From contig CAMNJZ010000014.1 of assembly GCA_946541955.1 (NCBI GenBank), positions 1 to 36,954 on the forward strand: a DNA stretch of 36,954 nucleotides, written 5' to 3'. A program made the translations under genes and the position numbers. Each line of letters opens with the position of its first letter. The stretch's first letter is position 1. The notes below the pieces were generated by a model that was given only the letters and a program-made list of their open reading frames with translations, was not told the origin of the DNA and did no database searches. The DNA is from an uncultured Lachnospiraceae bacterium (GTDB lineage Bacteria > Bacillota > Clostridia > Lachnospirales > Lachnospiraceae). Below, one piece after another: positions 16,361 through 22,984 of the stretch.

Positions 16361-16410
16361 GGTCCTTAGAAGGCCCGGGCGGCCGGAGCAGGCGAAAGGA
16401 GAAGACGGCG

Positions 16411-17244
16411 GTGGATTACGGATTAAAGCCCGAAGATTATAAGGAACCCAGATGCCCTCTGTGCGAGGATCCCTACGGGGCAGCGCCCCGGGTGAAATCG
16501 GTGCCCCAGCAGAGGATCGTTGAAAAAATGAACGCCTACATGGCCGCAAGGGACTATGAAGGGGCGGAGCGCCATCTCCTCTACTGGCTGGAGGAAGCCC
16601 TCCTGGGGCATGACCGCCGGGGCGAGCTGATGATCCGGGGCGAGCTGATCGGCCACTACCGCAAGGTGGGGAACAAAGAAAAGGCCCTGGAGAACGCAGA
16701 CAGGGTCCTGGCCCTGATCCGGGACATGGACTTTGAGGAGACCATTTCCGCCGGGACAGCCTATGTCAATGCGGCCACGGCCTGCAGCGCCTTTGGAGAA
16801 AACGAAAGGGCCCTGGCCCTCTTTGAAAAGGCCAGGCAGATCTATGAGGCGGCCCCAAAGACGGATCCCTCCCTCCTGGGGGGCCTTTACAACAACATGG
16901 CCCTTGCCTGCAGCGCCCTTGGCCGGACCGGGCAGGCCATGGACCTTTATGAAAAGGCCATCCTTTCCATGCGGAAGGTCCCGGACGGGCACCTGGAGGA
17001 AGCCATTACCTGCCTGAATATGGCGGATACCCTGGTCAGTGAAGGCGGCATGGAACAGCACGAGGACCGGATCTACGAGCTTCTGGACAGGGCCTGCAGC
17101 CTTCTGGAGGATCCGGGACAGGCCCCGGCGGGCTACTATGCCTTCGTGCTGGAAAAATGCGCCCCGGTCCTTTCCTGGTACGGATATTTTGCCGCGGCAG
17201 AGGACTTCCGGGAAAAAGCGGAGAAGATTTATGCAGGGACTTGA
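16411..17244 (+). CDS. Tetratricopeptide-repeat protein
   Basis: This 277-residue soluble helical protein has a short N-terminal segment with RCPLCEDP, followed by TPR-like helix pairs: DYEGAERHLLYWLEEAL, KEKALENADRVLALI, NERALALFEKARQIY and TGQAMDLYEKAILSM. A GTG start at 16411 follows AAAGGAG by nine bases; an upstream in-frame GTG at 16351 lies within the putative promoter. TPR arrays bind other proteins. Its 3' end overlaps the DUF4037 gene by 14 bases, so the natural partner is that protein. It may act as a scaffold or as a neutralising partner; the function is unknown. Confidence 0.82.
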   Translation: MDYGLKPEDYKEPRCPLCEDPYGAAPRVKSVPQQRIVEKMNAYMAARDYEGAERHLLYWLEEALLGHDRRGELMIRGELIGHYRKVGNKEKALENADRVLALIRDMDFEETISAGTAYVNAATACSAFGENERALALFEKARQIYEAAPKTDPSLLGGLYNNMALACSALGRTGQAMDLYEKAILSMRKVPDGHLEEAITCLNMADTLVSEGGMEQHEDRIYELLDRACSLLEDPGQAPAGYYAFVLEKCAPVLSWYGYFAAAEDFREKAEKIYAGT

Positions 17245-18172
17245 ATTATCCAGACGGTTTTATGAAGAATACGGGAAGCCCATGCTGGAGGACCAGTTCC
17301 CCCAGGTCCTGCCCTACCTGGCAGGGGGACTTACGGGCAGCGGGTCGGAATGCTACGGCTTCGACGACGAGGTCTCCAGGGACCATGATTTTGAGCCGGG
17401 CTTCTGCCTCTTTCTGCCCTCGGAGGACCTGGTGGACCGCAGGACGGCCTTCCTGCTGGAAAGAGCCTACGCCAAACTCCCCAGGGAATTTATGGGCTTT
17501 CAAAGACCCCTGGTGGGCCCTGCGGGCGGCGCCAGGCGGGGCGTCCTGCGGATCGAGGATTTCTATAAGGAAAAGCTGGGGGCAGCTGACGGGGTCCTGA
17601 CCCTGGGCCAGTGGCTCTCGCTTCCGGAAGCCGCCCTGGCGGAGGCTTCCAACGGGCAGATCTGGTTCGACCATTACGGCCTTGTCACCAGGATCCGGGA
17701 AGGGATCGACCATTACCCGGAGGAGATCCGGCGCAAGAAGCTGGCGGGACATCTCCTCCTCATGGCCCAGGCAGGCCAGTACAATTACCAGCGGTGCCTG
17801 CGGCACGGGGAGACGGCGGCCGCCCAGCTGGCGGTCAGCGAGTTCGTCCGGTCCGCCATGCAGGTTATTTTCCTCCTCAACCGGGTCTACCAGCCCTACT
17901 ACAAGTGGTCCTTCCGGGCCCTTCGAAGGCTGCCCCGCCTGTCCATCCTGGCGGAGCTTCTGGAATACCTGCTGACCTCGGACAATGACAAGCCTGCCCG
18001 GGAAGAAAAATATATGGTGATCGAGAGCATTGCGGCCGACATCATCGAGGCCCTGCAGGAAGAGGGGCTGACAGACGCCATCTGCCAGGACCTGGAAAAG
18101 CACGCCTATTCGGTCAATGACAAAATCGGCGACGCCTCCCTCAGGAACCTCCATATCCTGGCCGCAGTTTAG
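17231..18172 (+). CDS. DUF4037 protein with nucleotidyltransferase-like fold
   Basis: This 313-residue protein begins at ATG 17231 inside the end of the TPR gene, with GGAGAAG before it. The N-terminal domain contains GSGSECYGFDDEVSRDHDF (36-54). This is the GS...DxD pattern of the DNA polymerase beta-like nucleotidyltransferase superfamily, with Asp51 and Asp53 as the candidate metal ligands. The C-terminal half (about 165-300) is helical, as in kanamycin nucleotidyltransferase. I recognise the family as DUF4037, whose reaction is not known to me. Overlap with a TPR gene points to a two-protein module. The nrdG gene follows 12 bases later, possibly on the same transcript. Confidence 0.8.
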   Translation: MQGLELSRRFYEEYGKPMLEDQFPQVLPYLAGGLTGSGSECYGFDDEVSRDHDFEPGFCLFLPSEDLVDRRTAFLLERAYAKLPREFMGFQRPLVGPAGGARRGVLRIEDFYKEKLGAADGVLTLGQWLSLPEAALAEASNGQIWFDHYGLVTRIREGIDHYPEEIRRKKLAGHLLLMAQAGQYNYQRCLRHGETAAAQLAVSEFVRSAMQVIFLLNRVYQPYYKWSFRALRRLPRLSILAELLEYLLTSDNDKPAREEKYMVIESIAADIIEALQEEGLTDAICQDLEKHAYSVNDKIGDASLRNLHILAAV

Positions 18173-18184
18173 AGAGGAAGAAGA

Positions 18185-18877
18185 ATGAAAATACACGGAC
18201 TGCAGAAAATGACCCTCCTGGATTTTCCGGGCCGGGTCGCCTGTACGGTTTTTACGGGGGCCTGCGATTTCAGATGCCCCTTCTGCCATAACTTTGAGCT
18301 GGTGGACGGGTCCGCCCCGGCAGTCATGGACGAGGAGGCCCTCTTTGCCTTCCTGAAAAAGCGCCGCGGCCTTCTGGACGGCGTGGCCGTGACAGGCGGA
18401 GAGCCCTGCCTCCACAAAGATCTGCCAAAACTCCTTGCAGGCATCAGGGATTTGGGGTATGCTGTCAAACTGGACACCAACGGAAACCATCCCGACCTTC
18501 TGGAGGAGATCCTGCAGAGGGACCTGGCGGATTATGTGGCCATGGACATCAAGAACAGCCCCGAAAAGTACGCCAGGACCATCGGCCTCTCCCGGATCGA
18601 CCTGGGAGCCGTCACAAGGAGCATAGGGCTTTTGATGGAGAGCGGGAAGGACTATGAATTCCGGACCACCGTGGTCAGCCAGTTCCATGAAGCGGAGGAC
18701 TTTGCTAAAATTGGAGAGATGATCCGGGGCGCCAAGGCCTACTATCTCCAGGCCTTTACAGACAGGGACACCGTGCCCTTTGCAGGGCTCTCGGCCCCCT
18801 CCAGAGAGGAGCTGGAGGGCTTCGCTGACATCGTCCGCCCCTTCGTTAGGCAGGTTCATCTACGGGGAGTTGACTGA
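18185..18877 (+). CDS. nrdG: Anaerobic ribonucleoside-triphosphate reductase activating protein (radical SAM)
   Basis: This 230-residue radical-SAM activase installs the glycyl radical on NrdD using S-adenosylmethionine and a 4Fe-4S cluster. The cluster motif is CDFRCPFC (CX3CX2C) near residues 30-37, with VAVTGGEPCL for SAM binding and KLDTNGNHP on the next strand. The opening MKIHGLQKMTLLDFPGRVACTVF is characteristic of the NrdG2-type activases. It starts at ATG 18185 after GAGGAAGAAG. Unusually it precedes nrdD, which has its own promoter and control sites beginning directly after the nrdG stop codon, so the two genes may be expressed separately. Confidence 0.92.
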   Translation: MKIHGLQKMTLLDFPGRVACTVFTGACDFRCPFCHNFELVDGSAPAVMDEEALFAFLKKRRGLLDGVAVTGGEPCLHKDLPKLLAGIRDLGYAVKLDTNGNHPDLLEEILQRDLADYVAMDIKNSPEKYARTIGLSRIDLGAVTRSIGLLMESGKDYEFRTTVVSQFHEAEDFAKIGEMIRGAKAYYLQAFTDRDTVPFAGLSAPSREELEGFADIVRPFVRQVHLRGVD

Positions 18878-18879
18878 AA

Positions 18880-18927
18880 ACACTATATGTTGTGCATCTT
18901 TCCGAAAATTAAATCAAGATATTGATT
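18880..18927. promoter_or_regulatory. Pair of NrdR boxes
   Basis: Box 1 is ACACTATATGTTGTGC at 18880-18895, close to the NrdR consensus ACACWATATATWGTGT. Box 2 is the palindrome centred in AAATCAAGATATTGATTT at 18911-18928, a weaker match of about 11 of 16. The boxes are 32 bases apart, about three helical turns, as in known NrdR operators. NrdR would repress nrdD when dATP is plentiful. Confidence 0.75.
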
Positions 18928-18950
18928 TCTACCCTCTTCGGTGCTACTAT
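18922..18950 (+). promoter_or_regulatory. Promoter of nrdD
   Basis: TTGATT at 18922-18927 and TACTAT at 18945-18950 are 17 bases apart, with TGC before the -10. The -35 box lies inside the second NrdR box, so NrdR binding would block RNA polymerase. The leader contains the hairpin GCTCG-TTTTT-CGAGC. Confidence 0.7.
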
Positions 18951-19009
18951 TTATCTCGGCTCGTTTTTCGAGCAGGAAGATAATCTGTACTCACCAAAGG
19001 GGGGTTTTC

Positions 19010-21409
19010 ATGTATAAAGTCATCAAAAGAGATGGGCAGATCGCGGAATTCAACATCAGCAAAATCACAGGGGCCATCACAAAGGCCTTTGTAGCCCTGG
19101 AAAAGCAGTATCATCCCAGCGTGATCGAACTGATCGCTCTGCATGTCACGTCCGATTTCGAGGATAAGATCGTGGATGGACAGATCTCTGTCGAAAGCAT
19201 CCAGGACAGCGTGGAAAAGGTCCTTTCCGAATCCGGCTATGCGGATGTTGCCAAAGCCTATATCCTCTACCGTAAGCAGCGCGAGAAGGTCAGAAACGTC
19301 AACTCCGCCCTGCTCAACTACAAGGAGCTGATCAACAACTACCTGCAGATCAACGACTGGCGCGTCAAGGAGAATTCCACCGTCACCTATTCCGTCGGCG
19401 GTCTGATCCTTTCCAACTCCGGCGCCATCACAGCCAACTACTGGCTGAGCGAGGTCTATGACGAGGATATCGCCAGGGCCCACAGAAGCGCTGCCATCCA
19501 TCTGCACGATTTGTCCATGCTGACCGGCTACTGCGCAGGCTGGAGCCTCAAGCAGCTGATCCAGGAGGGTCTGGGCGGCGTACCCGGCAAGATCACCTCT
19601 GCCCCCGCCAAGCACCTTTCCACCCTCTGCAACCAGATGGTCAATTTCCTGGGCATCATGCAGAACGAATGGGCCGGCGCACAGGCCTTCTCTTCCTTTG
19701 ATACCTACCTGGCTCCCTTTGTCAAGGTCGACAACCTGGACCAGCATGAGGTCAAGCAGTGCGTCCAGTCCTTTATCTACGGCGTCAATACCCCCAGCCG
19801 CTGGGGCACCCAGGCACCCTTCTCCAACGTTACCCTGGACTGGACCGTGCCCAACGACCTGAAGAACCTGCCGGCCATCATCGGCGGCAAGGAGATGGAC
19901 TTCACCTATGGCGACTGCCAGAAGGAAATGGATATGGTCAACAAGGCCTTCATCGAGATCATGATCGAAGGCGACGCCAACGGACGCGGATTCCAGTATC
20001 CCATCCCCACCTATTCCATTACCAGAGACTTTGACTGGTCCGAGACCGAGAACAACAAGCTGCTCTTTGAGATGACCGCAAAGTACGGCACCCCTTATTT
20101 CTCCAACTATATCAACTCCGATATGGAGCCCAGCGACGTCCGCTCCATGTGCTGCAGACTCCGTCTGGATCTGCGTGAGCTCCGGAAGAAGTCCGGCGGC
20201 TTCTTCGGTTCCGGCGAATCCACCGGTTCCATCGGCGTTGTCACCATCAACATGCCCAGGATCGCTTACCTGGCCACGGACGAGGAGGACTTCTACAAGC
20301 GTCTGGACTACCTGATGGATCTGGCTGCCAGAAGCCTGAAGACCAAGAGGACCGTCATCACCACCCTCCTGGAGCAGGGCCTCTATCCTTATACCAAGAG
20401 ATATCTGGGCGGCTTCTCCAACCACTTCTCCACCATCGGCCTCATCGGCATGAACGAAGTGGGCCTCAACGCCAAATGGCTGCGGGCAGATCTGACCGAT
20501 GAGAGGACCCAGCGCTTCACCCGCGACGTCCTCAACCACATGCGTGAGAAGCTCTCCGACTATCAGGAGAAGTACGGCGACCTCTACAACCTGGAGGCAA
20601 CCCCCGCCGAGTCCACCACCTACCGTTTCGCAAAGCATGACAAGGAGCTCTATCCCGACATCATCACTGCCAACATGAACGGTACCCCTTACTACACCAA
20701 CTCCTCCCACCTGCCCGTAGGCTATACGGAGGATATCTTCTCCGCCCTGGATATCCAGGACGACCTGCAGACCCTGTATACCTCCGGTACGGTATTCCAC
20801 GCCTTCCTGGGCGAGAAGCTTCCGGACTGGAAGGCAGCAGCCAACCTGGTCCGCAAGATCGCGGAGAACTACAAGCTGCCTTACTACACCATGTCTCCTA
20901 CCTATTCCGTATGTAAGGACCACGGCTATCTGGCCGGCGAGCAGTTCACCTGCCCGATCTGCGGCTGCAAGACCGAGGTCTACAGCAGGATCACAGGCTA
21001 TTACCGTCCCGTCCAGAACTGGAACGACGGCAAGGCCCAGGAGTACAAGGACAGAAAGGTCTACAACATCGGCCATTCCGTTCTCAGACATACCGGCCCC
21101 GTACCGGCCCCCGCAGATCTCCCTGCAGAGCAGACAGCGGCACCGGCAGAAGCGGTCAAAGAAGCTGCATCAAAGGAACCGGAAATCATCCTTTTCAAGA
21201 CCCCTACCTGCCCCAACTGCAAGGCGGCGGCAGCCCTTCTTGACAAGGCCGGCATCGCCTATACGGCCCTCAACGCCAATGAGGAAAAGGACCTGGTCGG
21301 AAAGTTCGGCGTCAAGCAGGCCCCGACCCTGGTGGTCATGAACGAGGACGGCTTTGAGAAGTTCAGAGGCGTATCCGATATCCGGGGATGGCTCAAGAAA
21401 ACGGTATAA
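19010..21409 (+). CDS. nrdD: Anaerobic ribonucleoside-triphosphate reductase (class III) with C-terminal thioredoxin-like domain
   Basis: This 799-residue glycyl-radical enzyme makes deoxyribonucleotides from ribonucleoside triphosphates without oxygen. ATG 19010 follows AAAGGGGGG; the longer frame to 18941 overlaps the promoter. An ATP-cone occupies about residues 1-95 (YKVIKRDGQIAEFNISKI). The catalytic barrel follows. Cysteines around CPICGC (648-653) mark the zinc site, and RITGYY carries the probable radical Gly663. After a Pro/Ala/Glu-rich linker (about 695-723) comes an extra 75-residue redoxin domain with CPNC (Cys734, Cys737) and a cis-Pro-type QAPTLVV. The redoxin suggests the disulfide formed during turnover is reduced in cis rather than by formate. 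A reductase-family gene follows after a terminator. Confidence 0.93.
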   Translation: MYKVIKRDGQIAEFNISKITGAITKAFVALEKQYHPSVIELIALHVTSDFEDKIVDGQISVESIQDSVEKVLSESGYADVAKAYILYRKQREKVRNVNSALLNYKELINNYLQINDWRVKENSTVTYSVGGLILSNSGAITANYWLSEVYDEDIARAHRSAAIHLHDLSMLTGYCAGWSLKQLIQEGLGGVPGKITSAPAKHLSTLCNQMVNFLGIMQNEWAGAQAFSSFDTYLAPFVKVDNLDQHEVKQCVQSFIYGVNTPSRWGTQAPFSNVTLDWTVPNDLKNLPAIIGGKEMDFTYGDCQKEMDMVNKAFIEIMIEGDANGRGFQYPIPTYSITRDFDWSETENNKLLFEMTAKYGTPYFSNYINSDMEPSDVRSMCCRLRLDLRELRKKSGGFFGSGESTGSIGVVTINMPRIAYLATDEEDFYKRLDYLMDLAARSLKTKRTVITTLLEQGLYPYTKRYLGGFSNHFSTIGLIGMNEVGLNAKWLRADLTDERTQRFTRDVLNHMREKLSDYQEKYGDLYNLEATPAESTTYRFAKHDKELYPDIITANMNGTPYYTNSSHLPVGYTEDIFSALDIQDDLQTLYTSGTVFHAFLGEKLPDWKAAANLVRKIAENYKLPYYTMSPTYSVCKDHGYLAGEQFTCPICGCKTEVYSRITGYYRPVQNWNDGKAQEYKDRKVYNIGHSVLRHTGPVPAPADLPAEQTAAPAEAVKEAASKEPEIILFKTPTCPNCKAAAALLDKAGIAYTALNANEEKDLVGKFGVKQAPTLVVMNEDGFEKFRGVSDIRGWLKKTV

Positions 21410-21436
21410 TCCTGCCTGATCATCAAAGGTTTTTGG

Positions 21437-21482
21437 AAAGAGCTCGTGAAGCGCCGCAAGGAATTTCACGGGCTCTTTTTTC
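21437..21482 (+). terminator. Terminator of nrdD
   Basis: A 12-base-pair stem, AGAGCTCGTGAA at 21439-21450 with TTCACGGGCTCT at 21465-21476 (one G-U pair), is followed by a run of T to 21481. Confidence 0.88.
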
Positions 21483-21519
21483 GGGCCGGGAAAGAGAAGC
21501 ACAAAAGAAAAGTCCCATG

Positions 21520-21528
21520 TGCTATAGT
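21520..21528 (+). promoter_or_regulatory. Extended -10 promoter of trxB
   Basis: TGC followed by TATAGT at 21523-21528 forms an extended -10 element after the nrdD terminator. The -35 region is poor. Start would be near 21535, leaving a short leader. Confidence 0.55.
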
Positions 21529-21557
21529 AAGAAAAAGACAGAAAGGAAGAAGTGAAA

Positions 21558-22469
21558 ATGGTAGATGTAATTATCGCAGGCGGCGGCCCCGCCGGCATGA
21601 CAGCAGCCCTTTACCTCAGACGGAACGGCAAGTCCGCTCTGGTCATCGAGAAGAACGGCTTTGGCGGCCAGATCACCCATTCTCCCAAGGTGGAGAACAT
21701 TCCGGGCTTTGCCTCCCTCTCCGGCAATGAATTTGCCGAGAAGATGCTGGACCAGATCCTGGCCCAGGGGGCGGAGATCGAGATCGACACCGTGGTATCC
21801 GTGGAGGACCTTGGGGAGATCAAGCGGGTCACCACCGAGGAAGGCAATGTCTTTGAAGCAAAGGCCGTGATCCTGGCCACCGGCGTCAAGCACAGGATGC
21901 TGGGCCTGCCCGGAGAAGAAGACCTGGTGGGGGACGGAATCTCCTTCTGCGCGGTCTGCGACGGCGATTTCTACGCCGGCAGGAAGGTCTGCATGGCAGG
22001 CGGCGGCAACTCCGCCCTGCAGGAGGCCATCCTTTTGTCCGAAAAGTGCAGCGAGGTCGTCATGCTCCAGGACCTGCCCTATTTTACCGGCGAAGAAGCC
22101 CTGCAGAAGATCCTCTTTGCCCGTCCCAATGTAAAGGCCATGACCGGCGTGAAGGTCACCGGCCTTGTTACAAAGGCAGGCGAGCTGATCGGCGTCCAGG
22201 TGTCCCAGGAGGGAAAGACCCCGGAGACCATAGACTGCGACGGTCTTTTTGTGGCCATCGGCCTGATCCCCGAGAACGAAGCCTACAGGGACCTGGCAGA
22301 CCTCAACGACTGGGGTTATTTTGACAGCGATGAATCCTGCACCACCAAAACCCCCGGCATCTTTGCAGCCGGCGACTGCAGATCCAAGAGCGTGCGTCAG
22401 GTCGTGACAGCCTGTGCGGACGGAGCCGCCGCGGCCCTTTCCGCCATCCGTTATATCAACAGCCTTTGA
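21558..22469 (+). CDS. trxB: Thioredoxin reductase family flavoprotein
   Basis: This 303-residue FAD enzyme of the TrxB family has an FAD-binding IIAGGGPAGMTAALYL at 5-20, redox-active CAVC at 131-134 and the C-terminal FAD motif GIFAAGDCRS. ATG 21558 is seven bases after AAAGGAAGA; a GTG two codons upstream is too close to it. The pyridine-nucleotide domain has AGGGNSALQEA. Where NADPH enzymes have the HRRxxxR phosphate-binding motif, it instead reads VVMLQDLPYFTG, so NADPH may not be the electron donor. Ferredoxin-dependent relatives in clostridia also lack this motif. Its place after nrdD suggests it recharges the fused redoxin domain. The queT start follows by coupling. Confidence 0.88.
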   Translation: MVDVIIAGGGPAGMTAALYLRRNGKSALVIEKNGFGGQITHSPKVENIPGFASLSGNEFAEKMLDQILAQGAEIEIDTVVSVEDLGEIKRVTTEEGNVFEAKAVILATGVKHRMLGLPGEEDLVGDGISFCAVCDGDFYAGRKVCMAGGGNSALQEAILLSEKCSEVVMLQDLPYFTGEEALQKILFARPNVKAMTGVKVTGLVTKAGELIGVQVSQEGKTPETIDCDGLFVAIGLIPENEAYRDLADLNDWGYFDSDESCTTKTPGIFAAGDCRSKSVRQVVTACADGAAAALSAIRYINSL

Positions 22470-22483
22470 TCCGGGAGACAGCA

Positions 22484-22984
22484 TTGAAAACAGAAGACAG
22501 CAAAACGATATTTCTTACCCAGGCGGCAGCCATTGCCGCCGTATACATTATACTGACCGTACTGGCAGCTTCCGTAAACCTGGCCAGCGGCGCCATCCAG
22601 GTCCGCTTTTCCGAGGCCCTGACCATCCTGCCCTTCTTTTCCGGGGCGGCGGTCCCCGGCCTGGCCATCGGCTGCCTCTTATCCAACATCCTTACGGGCT
22701 GCGCCCTGCCGGATATCATCTTCGGGACCCTGGCCACGCTGCTGGGGGCCATCGGCACCAGGTGCCTGCGGGGGAACCGCTGGCTCTGCAGCCTGCCGCC
22801 CGTGATCGCCAACACCCTGATCATCCCCTTCGTTCTGACCTACGCCTACCAGATCCCCGGCGGCATTCCCTTTCTGATGCTGACGGTGGGGGCCGGCGAG
22901 GTCCTCTCCTGCGTGGTCCTGGGGGAGATTCTCCTGAGCGCCCTGCAGAGGGTCCGCGGGGGCGTCTTCAAAGACCAGACCTGA
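22484..22984 (+). CDS. queT: QueT family ECF S-component (probable queuosine-precursor transporter)
   Basis: This 166-residue membrane protein has about six hydrophobic segments. The stretch IQVRFSEALTILPFFSGAAVPGL is characteristic of QueT-type S-components, which bind queuine or preQ precursors and use the general EcfA/A'/T module. No such module is adjacent; the CbiQ/CbiO pair at the left of the window belongs to a metal transporter and is not expected to be shared. The start is unusual: TTG 22466 overlaps the trxB stop, while TTG 22484 has GGGAGA six bases upstream and is preferred. No preQ1 riboswitch can sit in the few bases before it. Confidence 0.8.
   Translation: MKTEDSKTIFLTQAAAIAAVYIILTVLAASVNLASGAIQVRFSEALTILPFFSGAAVPGLAIGCLLSNILTGCALPDIIFGTLATLLGAIGTRCLRGNRWLCSLPPVIANTLIIPFVLTYAYQIPGGIPFLMLTVGAGEVLSCVVLGEILLSALQRVRGGVFKDQT

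Follow-up and report, generated by a model that had tools for sequence, protein, structure and literature searches.

A class III ribonucleotide reductase with a C-terminal redoxin domain and a neighbouring thioredoxin reductase-family gene in a Lachnospiraceae bacterium

The class III ribonucleotide reductase (RNR) type NrdD3 occurs in methanogens, and its redoxin is a separate protein. NrdD3 is paired with a glutaredoxin-like NrdH in Table 1 of PMC9176816, and NrdD2 of Neisseria bacilliformis (Wei et al. 2014, via PMC9669993, PMC4493059 and PMC9176816) is thioredoxin-dependent. Fused redoxins have also been described: a grx::nrdD fusion is named in Lachnospiraceae bacterium TWA4 (Rozman Grinberg et al. 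2018, PMC6187632), and in the same paper the fused glutaredoxin (Grx) of the class I RNR of Facklamia ignava was shown with Cys mutants to function as its reductant. All papers are cited here from excerpts. We analysed a stretch of 36,954 nucleotides (the window) from an uncultured Lachnospiraceae bacterium. This stretch, contig C14 of an assembly of 2.24 Mb and 85% completeness, carries an nrdD gene fused to a C-terminal redoxin domain. The encoded protein, denoted as P0001, is probably an NrdD2-kind class III RNR that is re-reduced by its own tethered redoxin, with a flavoprotein of the thioredoxin reductase (TrxR) family recharging the latter. The gene is built as follows, where pLDDT is the predicted local distance difference test score.

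19010-21409, + strand: nrdD fused to a C-terminal redoxin, P0001, 799 aa (Pfam and NCBIfam)
19016-19285, + strand: ATP-cone, residues 3-92 (PF03477, 8.3e-23, above cut-off)
19370-21064, + strand: class III RNR catalytic domain including the glycyl radical region, residues 121-685 (PF13597, NRDD, 6e-192)
21068-21178, + strand: linker, about residues 687-723 (pLDDT below 50 at 700-723; the full-length model is of low quality)
21161-21400, + strand: redoxin domain, residues 718-797 (Pfam, alignments, AlphaFold and Foldseek)
21209-21220, + strand: CPNC, C734-C737, within the redoxin domain

The reading frame of P0001 starts with ATG and is uninterrupted by stops over its whole length. The NrdD part matched NF006126 of NCBIfam at 1151.7 bits (cut-off 548), and P0001 belongs to the class III RNRs by its NRDD domain above cut-off, G663 at the glycyl-radical position and a companion NrdG2 activase. 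An earlier note on this DNA had claimed that NrdD ends in a thioredoxin-like domain with CPNC at residues 734-737 after a flexible linker, and the domain search of the gene bore this out, with a redoxin fold present after residue 720. In the tail, the Pfam families Glutaredoxin (residues 726-776, 1e-6) and Thioredoxin (residues 718-787, 8.7e-6) both matched above cut-off. An AlphaFold model of residues 714-799, built with 67 sequences, reached a pLDDT of 89.6 with the order β-α-β-α-β-β-α, and the isolated tail is confidently predicted to be a minimal thioredoxin fold. The best 50 rows of a Foldseek search with this model were mainly thioredoxins (best E 2e-5, query template modelling score 0.56-0.76). 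Considering its fold, the CxxC at a helix start and P772 at the cis-Pro position, the tail is a member of the glutaredoxin/thioredoxin superfamily. Among the specific redoxin families listed for the tail, none was above cut-off, YruB reaching 29.5 of 88.55 bits; the NrdH family (TIGR02194) gave 27 bits against a cut-off of 85.75. As no specific family cut-off was reached, the name redoxin is safe for the tail and NrdH is not.

The residues of the active site were assigned by alignment to 4coi, counted by eye, with the Thermotoga maritima numbering taken from PMC4493059 and PMC9669993. C175 of P0001 corresponds to C125 of T. maritima NrdD, M380-C381-C382-R383 to the SCCR at 328-331, E529 to E495, and G663 to the glycyl radical G621. 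According to PMC4493059, NrdD2 enzymes have a third Cys plus a Glu, and in some cases also a Met. P0001 possesses both the extra finger-loop Cys (in M380-C381-C382-R383) and the active-site Glu (E529), and with MCCR and Glu it falls outside the formate type NrdD1, which has a single-Cys MGCR without the extra Cys and Glu. Judged by these residues, the active site is NrdD2-like, yet it retains the Met linked to formate use.

We infer from these features a disulfide relay in which NrdG2 would install the glycyl radical on G663, and in which each turnover would oxidise C175 and one Cys of the C381-C382 pair to a disulfide. The CPNC domain would swing on its linker of some tens of residues and reduce the active-site disulfide of either the same or the partner subunit, with C734 attacking and C737 resolving. 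A flavoprotein of the TrxR family, most likely the neighbour-encoded P0003, would then recharge the oxidised CPNC, probably drawing its electrons from NADH rather than NADPH.

A genome scan with P0001 matched at least 594 stretches, and the counts out of 80 given here refer to the best 80 loci. The titles of these loci name mainly gut and rumen Clostridia; one complete genome is among them, as are Butyrivibrio and Dielma fastidiosa. All 80 align with P0001 to residue 791 or beyond, and each has a CxxC, as CPNC in 77 and CPKC in 3 (in L103, whose N-terminus is cut, the CxxC was read by eye). MCCR and NLEATPAE occur in 80/80, and the formate-type motif MGCR occurs in 12/12 distant NrdD genes from 11 members of the genus. 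The distance from NWNDGK to the redoxin is variable, at 31-113 residues in the 78 loci with a value. C734, P735, C737 and P772 are invariant in alignment A3 (the window plus 32 of the best 80 loci), and these four residues are likewise invariant in alignment A2 (the window plus 66 loci). The redoxin domain is under purifying selection, less tight than that on the NrdD core; the ratio of nonsynonymous to synonymous substitution rates in the redoxin was 0.11-0.28 in 11 of 14 pairs and was not computable in the other three. That two genes had been merged through a sequencing error can practically be dismissed. We rejected this artefact because the fusion recurs in 80/80 best loci, including AP018533, titled as a complete genome, and records not marked as metagenome-assembled (Butyrivibrio INlla16, Butyrivibrio FCS014 and the type strain of Dielma fastidiosa).

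When 295 genomes of the order were surveyed with a C-terminal query, 74 matched; 62 of these matches extend into the redoxin, frame length marks 7 as unfused, and the other 5 are long frames matched in the NrdD part alone. Across the phylum, 108 of 398 surveyed genomes matched and 14 of these reach the redoxin, and at least one further genome (G694, locus L213) has a CPNC tail beyond the query match. The fusion is not unique to the source genome, being common in this order of Bacillota. A quickly built tree comprised 86 rows, of which 66 were fused and 20 unfused; the fused or unfused label changed 6 times on it, compared with 18 in shuffles. This tree used every fourth of the best 80 loci, omitting 60, and was built without L174 and L193 (no whole frame), L194 (contig end), and L197 and L199 (inserts). 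An earlier tree of 80 rows, without L190, L195, L196, L198, L204 and L214, gave 5 changes, and a single fused clade, tested on that tree, was not rejected (approximately unbiased test, p 0.22) though it was 51.8 log units worse. The data allow, and do not prove, a history of one gain plus few losses. In one genome with a fused nrdD (L165, G010), a separate ORF of 176 aa (18299-18826) that ends in a fused-type redoxin lies about 15 kb away.

Several observations weigh against a redoxin-driven enzyme recharged by its neighbour, and those on the reductant itself are taken up before those on the reductase. The full-length AlphaFold model was poor (pLDDT 64) and no docking of the redoxin was visible in it, so it was set aside as evidence on docking. 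No separate redoxin ORF was found beside nrdD in the 12 bacterial unfused loci of our comparison set, which offer 1.5-1.9 kb downstream. The unfused clade shares the MCCR and Glu motifs with the fused NrdDs, and the Met of MCCR is retained in all 80 best loci, so that formate use is possible. The enzyme may accordingly accept two reductants by supply, formate (via Met380/Cys175) or the fused redoxin, and we consider the chance of this not far short of even. Met, double Cys and Glu occur together in 80/80, and according to PMC9669993 the Met is retained in 83% of double-cysteine class III sequences, which seem equipped for both reductants and might use one or the other. A less likely case is that the enzyme is actually driven by formate, with the redoxin serving only in repair or protection, for example of C175/C381/C382 disulfides after air exposure, and we consider it unlikely; the retained Met fits such a role, and the unfused clade manages without a redoxin domain. 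On the other side, three phage loci have a separate redoxin ORF adjoining an unfused nrdD, and the fused state changes rarely on the 86-row tree.

The distribution of pyruvate formate-lyase (PFL) bears on both of these alternatives. In the source genome we found one NrdD, and neither a class I/II RNR large subunit nor a PFL-like protein within the 85% that is assembled. In a genus sample of 37 genomes the fusion is present in 23, and none of the 22 tested (G033 omitted) has a true PFL (TIGR01255), the best score being 197 bits versus more than 1000 for true full-length PFLs. PFL was found in 5 of 7 genus genomes with MGCR NrdDs only, three of these being contig fragments below cut-off. These absences weaken formate as the usual donor in the genus and speak against a mere repair role. 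The contrast between fused and MGCR-only genomes (Fisher p ~2e-4) is uncorrected for kinship and for incomplete genomes. Two genomes of other families, G039 and G056, have a fused NrdD plus PFL, as a dual-reductant enzyme would allow, and strict mutual exclusion of PFL and fused NrdD was rejected at the order level because of them. Four fused genus members (G005, G008, G027 and G035) also carry an MGCR NrdD with no PFL found, so a missing PFL need not mean missing formate. Furthermore, the 99% complete genus member G015 has two MGCR NrdDs (L154 on C36 and L155 on C20), and neither a fused NrdD nor a PFL was found in it. Taken together, these cases make the absence of PFL a tendency and not a rule.

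The genes and sites flanking the fused gene are the following.

18185-18877, + strand: nrdG2, radical-SAM activase of NrdD, P0002 (TIGR02495, 201.7 bits, cut-off 131.15)
18880-18927, + strand: probable NrdR box pair, 18880-18895 (2 mismatches) and 18912-18927 (5 mismatches), spacer 16
21437-21482, + strand: strong intrinsic-terminator-like hairpin with T-run between nrdD and the reductase gene
21552-22469, + strand: flavoprotein of the TrxR family, P0003 (TIGR01292, 288.3 bits, below the cut-off of 343.45)

The earlier note had placed NrdG beside NrdD, and NrdG2 is indeed encoded there above its cut-off; an NrdG relative lies upstream on the same strand in 70/80. The note had also named the next gene as a TrxR-family flavoprotein, of which the family stands; the full TIGR01292 cut-off was missed and the NADPH motif is replaced. 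P0003 retains CAVC and GGGNSA, and LQDLPYFTG takes the place of HRRxxxR, the 2'-phosphate site of NADPH-dependent TrxRs, to which P0003 thus does not belong. HRR was present in 7 of the 56 neighbour TrxRs with a readable site. The closest solved chain to P0003 is 7jyp (232 bits), and 6gnc, a ferredoxin-dependent flavin TrxR (FFTR), gave 105 bits. Since the NADPH motif is missing, we considered P0003 as a ferredoxin-dependent clostridial FFTR. According to PMC10880999, FFTR has lost both NAD(P)H motifs, and this assignment seems less likely for P0003 because the pyrophosphate (PP) motif GGGNSA is kept and the similarity to the clostridial structures is low. PMC5627308 describes a TR3 group in which the PP motif is kept and the 2'-phosphate motif changed, the TR3 of Desulfovibrio vulgaris preferring NADH, and gives the same preference for T. 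maritima TR. As P0003 shares these TR3-type motifs, NADH is the likelier donor, and by this analogy P0003 probably uses NADH rather than NADPH.

A TrxR relative follows nrdD on the same strand in 61/80 loci by ORF search and in 63/80 by tblastn, which adds L090 and L120, and the gap is at most 30 bp in 24 of the 63. Within 1.5-1.9 kb downstream of the 12 bacterial unfused genes no TrxR relative was seen. Against the partnership, tblastn found no adjoining TrxR in 17/80 best loci, 13 of them with at least 1.5 kb downstream, and none adjoins nrdD in six distant fused loci from the genus and order sets (L164, L165, L166, L167, L169 and L170). A TrxR does adjoin nrdD in the distant fused locus L168. 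As distant fused loci mostly do not have one, the reductase accompanies only part of the fused lineage. Of 55 relatives whose nrdD and TrxR gene lie no more than 400 bp apart, 14 also have a hairpin with T-run between the two genes. It is therefore possible, if on balance rather doubtful, that the neighbouring flavoprotein is not the partner and that the fused domain is reduced by TrxB/TrxA or by low-molecular thiols. A canonical TrxA (WCGPC)-TrxB (HRRD) pair is encoded on C17 of the source genome, and this alternative also draws on the hairpin in the window and on the 17 loci without the neighbour; the retention of the neighbour in 61-63 loci, often at short gaps, and its absence from the unfused loci count against it. 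Besides the fused domain, the source genome has a single Glutaredoxin match, in a protein that we read as Spx/ArsC-like.

The site at 18880-18895 is the sole NrdR-box-like match of the window at no more than 3 mismatches (0.04 expected), scored with the NrdR box consensus. At the same threshold, and within 250 bp upstream, a box was present in 51 of the 78 relatives with enough upstream sequence compared with 0.9% of 1501 control stretches. Box pairs with summed mismatches of at most 9 numbered 57, with spacers of 14-17 in 40 and of 24-27 in 11, and a comparable pair was found in 4 of 741 control stretches. Tight binding at these two spacer classes is reported in PMC12051234. The source genome also carries an NrdR gene (C10:34603-35040), and expression of the fused gene is probably under NrdR. 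The fold of 21428-21488 had -32.5 kcal/mol (z -4.8), with none of 200 shuffles as low; a simple terminator scan omitted the hairpin, probably since its central part exceeds the loop limit of the scan. A single operon of nrdG, nrdD and trxR is unsupported in the window, as the terminator-like hairpin and the probable NrdR boxes intervene, and the three genes are probably neighbours that do not form one operon. The complete chain of reductase, redoxin and NrdD that the earlier note had deduced from gene order was thus stated too strongly in view of the hairpin, the boxes and the loci without a reductase, although the neighbourhood itself is kept. Outside this cluster, genes for a TPR protein and then a DUF4037 protein (16399-18172) lie just upstream of nrdG, and a QueT-family transporter gene (22466-22984) overlaps the end of the reductase gene.

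The fused gene is also present in phage contigs, with 18 of 30 viral loci scored as fused by script. L176 and L177 have identical rows in the tree, as do L178 and L192. In the viral contig L174 (3947-6367) the nrdD-redoxin gene is broken into several frames, and its redoxin domain was detected by profile. All ten flanking proteins scanned from four fused viral loci matched PHROGs, with DNA polymerase, integrase, helicase, primase, exonuclease and terminase among the matches, and ThyX is encoded near nrdD in L172. In 3 of 9 scanned viral loci without a detected fused redoxin, a redoxin ORF of 83-94 aa abuts or overlaps the nrdD frame.

L186, 3807-4055: redoxin ORF beside unfused phage nrdD (own profile only, 1.6e-8; no Pfam match)
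L195, 3714-3995: redoxin ORF beside unfused phage nrdD (Pfam Glutaredoxin)
L196, 2495-2770: redoxin ORF beside unfused phage nrdD (Pfam Glutaredoxin)

Such a split pair is the best genomic hint of the two proteins working together. The phage-collection record MT835493.1, unverified and unannotated, contains the complete fusion together with relatives of NrdG and TrxR, and could be bacterial DNA. Two phage NrdDs carry in-frame inserts, that of L197 (2840-6991) one directly before the counterpart of C175 and one directly before that of C381, and that of L199 (3950-7051) one at the finger loop; Pfam Intein_splicing and HNH were found in L197 only.

At its widest, the proposal would be a self-contained NrdD lineage in Bacillota and phages, in which electrons pass from NADH through a dedicated flavoprotein and the tethered redoxin to NrdD, independently of formate or free thioredoxin; we put this forward tentatively. 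If it is true, one polypeptide together with an activase and a reductase would suffice, and phages, whose contigs carry the same nrdD-redoxin device, could bring along deoxynucleotide synthesis independent of the redoxin pool of the host. The fused redoxin also suggests a reductant route for an RNR in numerous gut and rumen Clostridia, among them the source organism and the 21 other genus members that were tested and showed no true PFL. As the redoxin is in the same chain, P0001 offers a direct test of the formate-or-thioredoxin question for double-cysteine NrdDs that keep the Met.

Compared with described systems, the kind of fusion is already known and the variant is little described; in the main texts of open-licence PMC papers we found no description of the C-terminal fusion of this lineage. 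The grx::nrdD of TWA4 likewise unites a redoxin and NrdD in one polypeptide, and Lachnospiraceae are also named among our loci. TWA4 is one listed genome, for which the excerpts of PMC6187632 neither spell out the end that bears the Grx nor give an analysis, whereas the fusion here is C-terminal and has many members. In the Grx-ATP-cone-NrdB of F. ignava, a redoxin is also covalently attached to an RNR, and there its role as reductant has been shown; that enzyme differs in being of class I, with the Grx N-terminal on the radical-generating subunit and assayed with glutathione. P0001 shares the double Cys motif and the active-site Glu with NrdD2 of N. bacilliformis, which differs in having SCCR without the Met and in being reduced by thioredoxin, and for which the excerpts mention no fused domain. 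With NrdD3, the likeness is a small redoxin as the reductant, proposed as such here. Lastly, P0003 resembles the NADH-type TrxRs T. maritima TR and D. vulgaris TR3 (PMC5627308) in its TrxR family, CxxC, retained PP motif and changed HRRD; those enzymes are reported to prefer NADH, and for P0003 NADH as the cofactor and the fused redoxin as the partner are predicted.

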